From an uncultured delta proteobacterium (GTDB taxonomy: Bacteria; RBG-13-61-14; DRUE01): a stretch of DNA of 6,302 bases. The notes under the pieces are model-generated. The model was given only the letters and a program-made list of their open reading frames with translations. It did not search any database and was not told the origin of the DNA. The stretch spans positions 1 through 6,302 of the forward strand of contig CAIYYW010000216.1 in NCBI GenBank assembly GCA_903930515.1, read 5' to 3'. The position numbers were made by a program, and so were the translations under genes. Of the stretch, positions 277-4,291 are shown one piece after another (positions within the stretch are counted from its first letter, which is position 1; every line of letters starts with the position of its first letter).

Positions 277-1836
277 TTGAGCAAGATTGGCGCAAGTCCT
301 GAATCAGAGAACATTCCGCGCTTGGAGATGCAAGGCATTTCCAAGCGCTTCGGCGCAACTGTGGCATTGGACAATGTTGATCTGAGGGTGAGCCAAGGCG
401 AGGTGTATGCCCTGATCGGCGAGAACGGCGCGGGCAAGAGCACGCTGATGAAGATCCTTTCCGGGGCGATCAGCGCTGATTCTGGAAAGCTGTTGCTCTG
501 GGGCAATCCCTATCATCCGAGGAACCCGCTGGAAGCCCGGAATTCGGGCGTGGTGATGATTTACCAGGAGTTGTCTCTGGCGCCGCATTTGTCGGTGGAA
601 GAGAATATTATGCTGGGGATGGAGCCGGTGAGGCTCGGGCTGTTGCGTCGGGGGGAGATCCGGAAGCGGGTTAGCGAGGTCTTGGCGGAGTTGGAACATC
701 CGGAGATTCGTCCGGAGGCGAGGGTCGGGGATTTATCGGTTGCGGCTCAGCAACTGGTTGAGATCGGCCGGGGGCTGGCGCTGGGTTGCCGGGTTTTGGT
801 CCTGGACGAGCCGACCAGCTCGCTGGCGCAAAAAGATATTGACCGGCTGTTTGAAATCATCCGGCGGCTCAGGGGCCGGGGTCTGGCGATTGTTTATATC
901 TCGCATTTCCTGGAAGAGGTGAAACAAATCGCGGACCGGTATCTGGTCTTGCGCGACGGCCGGGTGGCCGGCTCCGGGGAGATCCTTGACACCAGCATTG
1001 AAGGGTTGGTCCAACTGATGATCGGCAGACAGATTGACCAGCTATATCCGCGCTCCGCCCGCGCTCCCGGGGAAACGGTCCTGGAGCTTAAGGATTTGGC
1101 CGGGTTCAATAAACTGGAGGACGCCAAGCTGAGTTTGCGGCGGGGAGAGGTCCTGGGAATTGCCGGTCTGGTGGGATCGGGCAGGACGGATTTGATCCGG
1201 GCGATTTTCGGTTTGGACCGGGTGAAATCCGGCGAGATCCGGGTCGGAGTCTATCTGGGCCCGGCGTCTCCGGCGATGCGCTGGTCTCAATCAATGGGTA
1301 TTCTGAGCGAGGACCGCGGCGGAGAGGGACTCGCGGTTTCAATGAGCTTGGCGGACAACCTTACCCTGTCCAAACTCACCGGCTTGGGCCCGATCAACCT
1401 GGTCCTTCCTTCCCGCCAAAACGCCGTGGTCGGCAAATGGATAGACCGACTCGGGATCCGCTGTCAAGGCCCGGACCAGCGGGTGTCCGAGCTTTCGGGC
1501 GGGAACCAGCAAAAGGTTGCGCTGGCTAGACTGCTTCATCACCAGGCGGATATCTTGCTGCTGGACGAGCCCACCCGTGGGATTGATGTCGCGAGCAAGG
1601 CCCAGCTTTATCGTTTGATAGACCAACTCGTCTCCGGAGGGCAGGATGGAAAGCCGGCCAAGGCGGCGCTGATGGTGAGCAGCTATTTACCGGAGCTGCT
1701 GGGAATCTGCGACCGGATCGCGGTGATGTGCCGGGGAAGGCTGGGACCGGCATATCCGGCCGCGGAAATGGACGAGCGAAAATTGATGCTGCTGGCCACC
1801 GGACAATCCCTCTCCTGCCCGGCCGCGTCGGATTAA
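277..1836 (+). CDS. Sugar ABC transporter ATP-binding protein, double-NBD (RbsA/MglA/XylG family)
   Basis: This 519-residue protein is the usual length for the fused ATPase of CUT2 monosaccharide importers, which sits on the cytoplasmic face and drives uptake by ATP hydrolysis. NBD1 has Walker A GENGAGKST (48-56), Q-loop Gln97, a degenerate signature LSVAAQQ (153-159), Walker B RVLVLDEPT (172-180) and H-loop His210. NBD2 has a lysine-less Walker A-like GLVGSGRTD (297-305), the SEDRGGEGL motif (344-352), a canonical signature LSGGNQQKVALAR (406-418) and Walker B ILLLDEPTRGID (426-437). Ser468-Ser469 stand where an H-loop histidine would be. This asymmetry, with one good Walker A in NBD1 and one good signature in NBD2, is typical of the family and not decay. 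The start is TTG with AGGAGA upstream. The RbsC-type permease encoded at 3302 is the likely partner, though an unrelated gene intervenes. No binding protein gene is present. The sugar cannot be told from the ATPase; ribose, xylose, galactose and AI-2 are all possible. Confidence 0.95.
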   Translation: MSKIGASPESENIPRLEMQGISKRFGATVALDNVDLRVSQGEVYALIGENGAGKSTLMKILSGAISADSGKLLLWGNPYHPRNPLEARNSGVVMIYQELSLAPHLSVEENIMLGMEPVRLGLLRRGEIRKRVSEVLAELEHPEIRPEARVGDLSVAAQQLVEIGRGLALGCRVLVLDEPTSSLAQKDIDRLFEIIRRLRGRGLAIVYISHFLEEVKQIADRYLVLRDGRVAGSGEILDTSIEGLVQLMIGRQIDQLYPRSARAPGETVLELKDLAGFNKLEDAKLSLRRGEVLGIAGLVGSGRTDLIRAIFGLDRVKSGEIRVGVYLGPASPAMRWSQSMGILSEDRGGEGLAVSMSLADNLTLSKLTGLGPINLVLPSRQNAVVGKWIDRLGIRCQGPDQRVSELSGGNQQKVALARLLHHQADILLLDEPTRGIDVASKAQLYRLIDQLVSGGQDGKPAKAALMVSSYLPELLGICDRIAVMCRGRLGPAYPAAEMDERKLMLLATGQSLSCPAASD

Positions 1837-1839
1837 AGG

Positions 1840-1868
1840 TTGACAATCCTTTTCCGGACAACCATTAT
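1840..1868 (+). promoter_or_regulatory. Probable sigma-70-type promoter for the secreted protein gene
   Basis: A perfect -35 box TTGACA (1840-1845) begins three bases after the ATPase stop codon. CATTAT (1863-1868, 4 of 6 matches to TATAAT) follows after 17 bp; TTATAT (1865-1870) is an alternative -10 at 19 bp. Transcription would start near 1875, leaving a leader of about 95 nt. This suggests the 1970 gene is expressed separately from the ATPase. Confidence 0.55.
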
Positions 1869-1895
1869 ATCATTATCCCATATCTCAGGCAGGGA

Positions 1896-1924
1896 AACCG
1901 GGTTATTCCGGGGTTGATATTTTA
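1896..1924 (+). terminator. Weak hairpin followed by a T-rich stretch
   Basis: AACCGG (1896-1901) can pair with CC plus GGTT (1908-1909 and 1912-1915), with a two-base bulge and the loop GTTATT. It is followed by GATATTTT. It could be a weak terminator for the ATPase transcript or a structure in the leader of the next gene. The stem is short and imperfect. Confidence 0.25.
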
Positions 1925-1969
1925 AGAAACGGTCTGGAGGATTAAGGCATCTAACCCAATAGGAGGAAG

Positions 1970-3115
1970 ATGAAAAATCTTCTAAAAACAGCCTTAATGG
2001 GATGTATGGTTTGGTCTTTGCTGATATTATTATCGCCGTCTGCCAACGGTCAGATGCCCGGGGCATATTATTGGGGCGATTCCGACAACGGTCTGATTGA
2101 CGGTACGGATCTGACCGCTCTGGAAGCGGCCCTGGCCGGTCAGAATCCGGGTTATTGGACGATTCCTCCCTCAAATCAGGCTCGGAGCGCGCTCTGGCAA
2201 GACCTGGATGGAAACGGGATTCTGGATGCTCCGGACTACACCATTATGCAGGGCTGGCTGGGCAACGATTTTTCCGATCATTCCGGATCTCCGGTTGAGA
2301 TCATCCTGGAAAAAACCGACATCACCATCGCTCCCGGCAGTTCGGTCTATATCCGGGCCAAGGCTCTGTCCGGTTACGGAAAAGGCCGGGCCGGATGGGG
2401 GATGGTGTTTCAGCTCGCCGGGGGCAGTTGCGCCACGGCCCGTCTCTATGGAAGGAATGTCAGCGATGGCAGTAGTTACGGCTGGTTCGCGGACCAGGCC
2501 TATGAATATACCAGGGATGCCTCGGGGAGTTGGTATGCAAGCGTCAAGCTCAAGACCGCGGGCTGTTCCGAGAATGACACTGTTTTTATCGGCGCCTATA
2601 TCCCGGGCTATGATCAGCGGTTCCCGTCCCGGCTGGTGGCCAGGAACTATACCGATGCCGGAGGCGGAACCGTTGAGCAGACCGCGGTCCATAACAACAC
2701 CTGCATTGACAACGACCACGACGGACGCGGTAATTATTGCTCCGCCGGCTCGGATTGCGATGACGCGGACCCGGACAACTGGAATAAATGCGCCACCTGC
2801 ATAGATGCGGATTCCGACGGCTGGTATGCCAACTGCGACCGATACCTGAACCGGCGCGGGCCGGATTGCGACGATGCCGACCGCTGGACCTGGCAGATGT
2901 GCAATTGTGTGCCGGAGTATTGTCCGGAATGTGTGTGTATGTCGCTTTGGGACCCGGTTTGCGTGGTTTCTGAATGTTATTATGAGAACGATTGTTTGGC
3001 GTATTCATATTGTGACGAGATTTATTGCTATCTGGGATTGGACGCTTACGGCGATATTGATCCTAATTCCGACTGCGCCCGGGCGCATCCAGGATGTATG
3101 AACCAATGCTGGTGA
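1970..3115 (+). CDS. Exported cysteine-rich protein with dockerin-like, MopE-like and Kazal-like segments
   Basis: This is a 381-residue protein with AGGAGG (1961-1966) just before its ATG. Residues 1-27 form a signal peptide: Lys2 and Lys6, a hydrophobic core, and an ANG cleavage site before Gln28, so it is exported. Residues 37-57 and 78-98 resemble the two Ca-binding F-hand repeats of a type I dockerin. The second, DLDGNGILDAPD (78-89), is canonical; the first is one residue short. Residues 109-240 are probably beta-rich and match no family I recognise; Cys154 and Cys199 may form a disulfide. Residues 244-274 and 276-311 each carry a D-x-D-x-DG stretch and then DCDD, as in the putative metal-binding (MopE-type) repeat. 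Residues 318-353 hold CVCMSLWDPVC followed by CYYENDCLAYSYC, close to the Kazal/follistatin pattern. The mature protein has 22 cysteines, an even number, 20 of them after residue 244, which fits an oxidised extracellular fold. No catalytic domain is visible; adhesion, protease inhibition or metal binding are guesses. It lies between the two sugar-transporter genes with its own promoter. Confidence 0.85.
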   Translation: MKNLLKTALMGCMVWSLLILLSPSANGQMPGAYYWGDSDNGLIDGTDLTALEAALAGQNPGYWTIPPSNQARSALWQDLDGNGILDAPDYTIMQGWLGNDFSDHSGSPVEIILEKTDITIAPGSSVYIRAKALSGYGKGRAGWGMVFQLAGGSCATARLYGRNVSDGSSYGWFADQAYEYTRDASGSWYASVKLKTAGCSENDTVFIGAYIPGYDQRFPSRLVARNYTDAGGGTVEQTAVHNNTCIDNDHDGRGNYCSAGSDCDDADPDNWNKCATCIDADSDGWYANCDRYLNRRGPDCDDADRWTWQMCNCVPEYCPECVCMSLWDPVCVVSECYYENDCLAYSYCDEIYCYLGLDAYGDIDPNSDCARAHPGCMNQCW

Positions 3116-3234
3116 TCCGACTCCAAGCGGGCCCGACCAAGGGCTGAAATCCCCCGGCCGTTGTCCGCGGCTTTGGCGCAAACGGCATTGTTCAAGTCCG
3201 CGCCCTCCGATCTTTGGAACTGATCCGCGGATCC

Positions 3235-3257
3235 GATCAATCAAGGTTGATCTTTTT
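3235..3257 (+). terminator. Possible Rho-independent terminator after the secreted protein gene
   Basis: GATCAA (3235-3240) and TTGATC (3247-3252) form a six-base-pair stem with the six-base loop TCAAGG, followed directly by five T residues (3253-3257). The stem is AT-rich and weak for a terminator. It sits about 120 bp after the stop of the 1970 gene and 45 bp before the permease start, where a transcription boundary would make sense. Confidence 0.4.
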
Positions 3258-3264
3258 ATCTGCT

Positions 3265-3292
3265 TTGCTTCGGGCTGGTTCTGCATTAAAAT
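3265..3292 (+). promoter_or_regulatory. Possible promoter of the permease gene, close to a leaderless start
   Basis: TAAAAT (3287-3292) matches the -10 consensus at 5 of 6 positions. TTGCTT (3265-3270), 16 bp upstream, is only a partial -35 box. Transcription from it would begin near 3299, only a few bases before the TTG start at 3302. This agrees with the absence of a Shine-Dalgarno sequence there, but the -35 match is weak. Confidence 0.3.
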
Positions 3293-3301
3293 AGAATCAA
3301 T

Positions 3302-4291
3302 TTGGAAAAAACTGAGAATCCCAAAATCCCCTTTTCTTTTAGCTGGCGCAAATGGCTCAATCTGATCGGCCCGGTCCTGGGCTTGGTGTTCGTATTCGCG
3401 CTTTTTTCCATCATCGCCCCGGAGAGCTTCCGGTCCGGCCGGAACCTGGAGACCATCGCCCGCCAGACCGCGATCACGGGCACAGCCTCGCTGGGAATGA
3501 CCCTGGTGATCATCTCGGCCGGAATAGACCTCTCGGTCGGGTCGGTGATCGCCCTTTCCACCGTGGTGATCGCCCTTCTGCTCAACCTCGGCCTGAATCC
3601 GCTCCTGGCCGGACTGGGCGGGATTCTGGCCGGGGCGATTTGCGGCCTGGTCAACGGCGCTCTGATCACGCGGTTGCGGGTGGTCCCCTTCATCGTCACC
3701 CTGGGCACGCTGCTGGTGATCCGGGGCCTGGCCAAGGGGCTGGCCCGCGAGCAAAAGGTGGACGCGCCGATCAGCTGGCTGAATAATTTACTCTCCGCGC
3801 TCAAGCCCGATCAGCGCTGGCTGGTCCTGGCTCCCGGGGTCTGGCTGATGATCATTCTCTCCCTGATGGTCTGGCTATTGCTCAGATACACCCGGCTGGG
3901 CAGGCATATCTTTGCCATCGGTTCCAATGAAAACACCGCCCGGCTCTGCGGGGTCCCCACCGACCGGGTCAAGGTGATGGTTTATACCCTTGCCGCGGGG
4001 TTCGCCGGACTTTCCGGCCTGATGCAGTTCAGCCGGCTCACCGTGGGAGACCCCACGGTGGCGGCCGGTCTGGAACTGGATGTGATCGCCGCGGTGGTGA
4101 TCGGGGGAGGAAGTTTGAGCGGGGGCGAAGGCTCCATCCTGGGCAGCCTGGTCGGGGCCTTGATTATGACGGTGATCCGGTCCGGCTGCTCCCAGATGGG
4201 TCTGCCCAACTGGGTCCAGGAAATCGTCACCGGAGCCATCATTATTATCGCCGTGGCTTTGGACCGGTTCCGGAGACGGCGGGCCTTTTGA
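3302..4291 (+). CDS. Sugar ABC transporter permease (RbsC family)
   Basis: This 329-residue polytopic membrane protein forms the translocation channel of a CUT2 sugar importer (branched-chain/ribose-type permease family, usual length 310-350). The signature GMTLVIISAGIDLSVGSV (65-82) is the hallmark RbsC segment. The cytoplasmic ATPase-contact region is IFAIGSNENTARLCGVPTDR (203-222), and the conserved IGGGSLSGGEGSILGSLVGA (267-286) follows. Hydrophobic spans fall near 20-39, 62-92, 98-121, 127-143, 174-194, 224-242, 258-292 and 306-320. The tail DRFRRRRAF is basic and presumably cytoplasmic. The TTG at 3302 is the only reasonable start: an in-frame TAA lies at 3287-3289 and no in-frame ATG occurs before residue 66. 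No Shine-Dalgarno sequence is visible. The ATPase encoded at 277-1836 is the natural partner, separated by the secreted-protein gene. The substrate is not determinable. Confidence 0.93.
   Translation: MEKTENPKIPFSFSWRKWLNLIGPVLGLVFVFALFSIIAPESFRSGRNLETIARQTAITGTASLGMTLVIISAGIDLSVGSVIALSTVVIALLLNLGLNPLLAGLGGILAGAICGLVNGALITRLRVVPFIVTLGTLLVIRGLAKGLAREQKVDAPISWLNNLLSALKPDQRWLVLAPGVWLMIILSLMVWLLLRYTRLGRHIFAIGSNENTARLCGVPTDRVKVMVYTLAAGFAGLSGLMQFSRLTVGDPTVAAGLELDVIAAVVIGGGSLSGGEGSILGSLVGALIMTVIRSGCSQMGLPNWVQEIVTGAIIIIAVALDRFRRRRAF

Follow-up and report, generated by a model that had tools for sequence, protein, structure and literature searches.

The gene at positions 1970-3115 of the window, which is the whole stretch of 6,302 nucleotides analyzed here, is best described as encoding a lineage-specific mosaic surface protein (P0001) with a divergent Kazal-type tail, whose parts are of known kinds and whose combination is unusual. 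P0001 is probably an exported, disulfide-rich and calcium-stabilised surface or extracellular protein.

ORF 1970-3115 is a genuine gene. An AGGAGG Shine-Dalgarno sequence lies directly 5' of the ATG and homologues were found for both the N-terminal and the C-terminal parts of the protein. The ORF, the Shine-Dalgarno sequence, the signal peptide and the homologues all agree with the 381-residue exported protein proposed in a preliminary description of this DNA. The order and positions of the parts were confirmed, with each motif located at the residues named. The protein contains 23 Cys, and the earlier count of 20 within the last 138 residues is exact. The features are as follows.

1951-1969, + strand: ribosome-binding site region (AGGAGG), from the sequence.
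1970-3115, + strand: whole ORF of P0001, 381 amino acids plus stop, from the ORF and its translation.
1970-2053, + strand: signal peptide of the Sec type, residues 1-28, with a predicted cleavage site, from the sequence and a hydrophobic start common to the aligned paralogues.
2075-2236, + strand: dockerin-like pair of Ca loops, residues 36-47 and 78-89, from the sequence and from a homologous module in G000:C3 that passes the Dockerin_1 cut-off.
2285-2629, + strand: predicted Ig-like beta-sandwich, residues ~106-220, from the AF2 model, Foldseek and VIA-align.
2696-2899, + strand: two MopE-type Cys/Asp metal-binding repeats, residues 243-310, from repeats D1 and D2 and from like units in proteins passing PF11617.
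2900-3112, + strand: Kazal-like Cys module, residues 311-381, from the relative on G000:C375, profile comparisons and shuffles.
2936-2962, + strand: putative reactive-site loop C323-M-S325(P1)-L-W(P2')-D-P-V-C331, from alignment with 3qtl, 1y1b and bacterial Kazal domains, with loop numbering from PMC3082530.

Searches of P0001 against Pfam and NCBIfam revealed no family at E<=1, and at E<=10 Pfam returned FG-GAP alone, a chance match. Neither database detected a dockerin, MopE or Kazal domain, the three families to which the segments had been likened, and none of the three Pfam profiles matched. The likeness was thus partly supported: formal membership fails for P0001 in each family, but the resemblance to each is supported. 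The claim that no described family has such an architecture stands for the whole protein within the scope of the searches, but not for the head, which is a recurring module. Literature searches found no account of the P0001 architecture.

The head (residues 29-240) carries two Asp-rich F-hand-type Ca loops, as in type I dockerins. The first (residues 36-47) runs from D37 to D47, with one residue fewer than the canonical 12, and the second, DLDGNGILDAPD at residues 78-89, has the canonical form of a dockerin F-hand. P0001 itself scores below the Dockerin_1 (PF00404) gathering threshold, but the homologous segment of G000:C3 passes it (23.7 against a cut-off of 22.9), so that the dockerin-like reading is upheld through a homologue. 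In contrast to type I dockerins, the pair is N-terminal, the first loop is short, Pfam does not match it and no cellulosome context was seen around P0001.

The region that follows had been described as an unrecognised beta-rich region, a label now replaced. In a four-row AF2 model of mature P0001 the Ig-like domain was the only confident part, with pLDDT about 55-85 over most of residues ~106-220. Foldseek and VIA-align matched this region to Ig-like sandwiches, C5 MG4 among them, with a best VIA Z of 8.7 (rmsd 3.9 over 108 aligned positions), and Pfam gave no match to it. The region is accordingly modelled as an Ig-like beta-sandwich, the model being a moderate one of a common fold.

Eight further copies of the N-terminal segment, with ~48-54% identity, were found in the same genome, together with distant ones. 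In a 116-genome sample the head occurred in three related genomes only, namely its own, one of the same genus (a lake-sediment MAG of an uncultured delta proteobacterium) and, more weakly, one of the same order, and was absent from the rest; these three genomes make up the sampled phylum. In these genomes the head, or a distant homologue of it, is joined to partners that include PKD arrays, propellers of the RCC1 and kelch types, an S8 subtilase (G000:C313, L030:4229-9004, - strand) and a peptidase M6 protein (G000:C3, L031:1251-9524, - strand), the last two with the head-homologous dockerin-like/Ig-like segment towards the C-terminus. These results show the front half to be a reusable module, specific to this lineage, which is combined with many different partners within the same genome.

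Copies of the head module lie at contig ends on C186, C220, C157, C321, C54 and C285 of this genome (L023-L028). Promoter-like DNA is common to the upstream regions of the copies on C245, C54, C220 and C157, and the copies on C54 and C285 are frame-broken at about the same place. The head-module family appears to have been recently amplified and probably broke the assembly at its copies. The genome also encodes two cohesin-like exported proteins, G000:C165 (L098:1345-2838, + strand) and G000:C207 (L099:1-2049, - strand), whose cohesin-like segments scored 25.4 and 24.6 bits in one scan and 23.7 and 21.7 in another, with a Pfam cut-off of 24.1. Behind each segment lie a dockerin-like stretch and repeats of the GANGICN type. 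These proteins may be partners of the dockerin-like heads.

Behind the head, P0001 has two D-x-D-x-DG...DCDD units (residues 245-264 and 277-302), which are also repeated at the DNA level (D1 and D2). P0001 falls below the PF11617 gathering score, but closely matching units in C368, C15 and G002 proteins pass it, so that the MopE-like reading holds for the sibling repeats and not formally for P0001. The units share the core of the MopE-type repeat and differ from it as W-containing variants that Pfam does not match; they are read as a W-containing variety of the MopE type.

The tail (residues 311-381) recurs once, in a lipoprotein encoded on G000:C375 (L033:998-1558, - strand), with 50% identity and 11 Cys in register. 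In both proteins a MopE-type repeat precedes the same Cys module. The lipoprotein differs in having a Lipobox anchor where P0001 has the dockerin-like/Ig head, in its MopE repeat, which passes PF11617 (33.5 bits), and in the P1 residue of the loop. Thus the Cys pattern, which had been expected to be conserved among homologues, is kept in the sole homologue of the tail. A profile search for the module in 386 genomes gave strong matches in its own genome only, and among the weak matches inspected were canonical Kazal domains and frames matched by chance. Within the phylum's three genomes these two proteins are the only strong matches, and a pattern scan of 84,980 species genomes, of limited sensitivity and with the own genome possibly excluded, did not find the module. 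At the sequence level these searches show that the module has two members and that half of it matches Kazal domains. Third-position GC is 0.49 in the tail (2900-3112), 0.63-0.77 in the rest of the gene and 0.73-0.82 in the transporter genes; the low value may reflect a separate origin or merely Cys and Tyr codons.

The tail contains C-x-C at residues 321-323, DPVC at 328-331 and Y-x-N-x-C at 338-342. The Kazal Cys order and loop signature (C-x7-C, PVC, Y-x-N-x-C, C) are found at residues 323-348, with extra Cys as well. Kazal Cys spacing alone carries no weight, since 16% of shuffles of the Cys-rich segment show it, whereas the spacing combined with PVC and YxNxC was seen in 1.5e-5 of shuffles. 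The module was also compared with a reference set of 39 bacterial Kazal fragments from loci carrying Pfam Kazal_2. With hhalign, the two-row module gave a probability of 90.8% and a score of 32.2 over 27 columns only, from C2 to just past C4, against 21% and 19.4 for the best of 200 column shuffles. With hmmsearch, residues 300-381 scored 11.1 bits against a maximum of 10.0 in about 5000 shuffles, and P0001 ranked first among the ORFs scanned; the lipoprotein module scored lower, at a level reached by about 6 of 5000 shuffles. Against the PDB, the module profile matched three sequences, all of them Kazal inhibitors (3qtl, 1y1b and 4gi3), weakly (E 0.07-0.44) and in no case significantly by itself, and phmmer with the whole of P0001 reached 3qtl (E 0.032). 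Pfam Kazal profiles (PF00050/PF07648) did not match P0001, P0002 or the lipoprotein at E<=10, and a PF07648 search of the own genome was empty. AF2 gave a pLDDT of 37.5 for residues 295-381 as a single sequence, and mostly below 50 for the tail in the four-row model, values too low to bear on its fold. The second half of the module has additional Cys and a conserved GxIDPNSxCAxxHPGCxxxC ending, whose IDPNS..HPGC part is absent from the Kazal domains collected. The Kazal reading of the preliminary description therefore lacks a Pfam match, but is favoured by the Cys pattern kept in the homologue and by a profile comparison well above shuffles. We consider it likely that the tail is a true Kazal-type domain.

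The tail has the loop frame C-x7-C-x10-C, an aromatic P2', PVC and YxNxC. In P0001, C323 is at P3, S325 at P1 and W327 at P2', and in the lipoprotein Leu and Phe occupy P1 and P2', respectively; the P1 difference implies that specificity is not conserved. The best explanation, put forward tentatively as somewhat short of an even chance, is that P0001 is an exported matrix or surface protein whose Kazal-type tail inhibits a subtilisin-type protease. The front half would anchor P0001 within the extracellular matrix or attach it to a cohesin-like partner, and the MopE-type repeats would form a metal-stiffened spacer. The tail would present C323-MSLWDPV-C331 to a serine protease, most likely of the subtilisin type and either the bacterium's own or a competitor's, which would be blocked by the standard substrate-like mechanism. 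The S8 subtilase and M6 peptidase with head-homologous segments and the two cohesin-like proteins of the same genome were counted in favour of this explanation. The tail is probably either a subtilisin-type inhibitor or a protein-binding tip, and active inhibition of a protease, as suggested by its loop, is a serious if slightly doubtful possibility. An extension of the inhibitor reading is improbable: this would be a non-cellulosomal extracellular assembly of the dockerin/cohesin type in an uncultivated lineage, whose proteases (S8, M6) and Kazal-type inhibitor would have related docking segments that place enzyme and brake on one matrix.

Non-inhibitory Kazal modules exist, for example follistatin-like ones, and the main rival, possible though rather doubtful, is that the tail is Kazal-descended but serves as a disulfide-knotted structural or adhesive tip on a surface protein that belongs to one family with the kelch/RCC1/PKD proteins. 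This would agree with the structural or binding repeats, rather than enzymes, borne by most head-module proteins in these genomes, with the different P1 residues of the two module copies and with the remodelled second half, but both copies have kept the loop frame, the aromatic P2' and PVC. It is unlikely that the tail is a Cys-rich domain of separate descent, Kazal-like in sequence by convergence, which only stabilises the C-terminus or binds metal: the lack of a Pfam match, the weak E-values throughout and the commonness of the Cys spacing among shuffles would fit convergence, but the profile-profile score is well beyond the shuffled range, PVC and YxNxC are in register with the spacing, and all PDB matches of the module profile are Kazal proteins. 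An assembly chimera joining repeated head-module DNA to an unrelated tail is very improbable, in spite of the many copies at contig ends of this 401-contig assembly and the two frame-broken ones, because the P0001 head, ~50% identical to other copies in protein and mostly ~70% in DNA, is too different for cross-joining in the manner of a repeat, the tail has a relative of its own and the flanks are co-linear rbsA and rbsC.

The P0001 gene lies between genes for an RbsA-like ATPase and an RbsC-like permease (window 1836-3302). Its neighbours encode a sugar ABC transporter, a ferredoxin and an alanine racemase, and nothing among them links the gene to a protease. In the genome of the same genus (G001:C375, L142) the rbsA and rbsC orthologues (74% and 81% identical) are adjacent, about 130 bases apart, and the gene is absent, so it was either inserted here or lost there; no terminal repeats marking insertion were found at the edges of the gene interval. 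We rejected the idea that the gene works together with the sugar transporter genes on either side, since rbsA and rbsC adjoin without it in the relative, making a link to sugar uptake unlikely.

In P0001 a remodelled Kazal-like domain is joined to a lineage-specific, putatively docking head, and a segment homologous to that head also occurs in the bacterium's own subtilase; this raises the question whether the tail inhibits that protease. The picture is of a sparsely sampled phylum shuffling surface-protein tails onto a shared N-terminal head.

Kazal domains are known above all as protease inhibitors of animals, and our literature searches found little on the function of the bacterial ones. 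Bacterial Kazal_2 proteins (e.g. L119, L130 and L109) were present in 12 of 290 sampled genomes. The L119 loop, CFCPELWDPVC, is identical to CVCMSLWDPVC of P0001 at 8 of 11 positions; these proteins differ from P0001 in that they pass PF07648, retain CGxDGxTYxN and the AGxxxxYxGxC ending and have other companion domains. L109 (G059:C1) has six Kazal domains in tandem and, behind them, a dockerin-like DVNGDDSIDLFD stretch; here a different family also combines Kazal and dockerin-like parts. The structure 3qtl, the closest of the three PDB matches, is that of the non-classical Kazal inhibitor CrSPI-1 in complex with subtilisin; the inhibitor loop has Cys at P3 and Tyr at P2', the Tyr stacking against the enzyme (PMC3082530). 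The corresponding residues of P0001 are Cys and Trp. CrSPI-1, the Anemonia elastase inhibitor (1y1b) and greglin (4gi3) share with P0001 the C2-x7-C3 frame, the aromatic P2', PVC, Y-x-N-x-C and a short C1-C2 spacing. In contrast to these inhibitors, P0001 has extra Cys before C4 and after C5 and a long IDPNS..HPGC extension, falls below the Pfam cut-offs, and has metal repeats and a dockerin-like head joined in front of its module.
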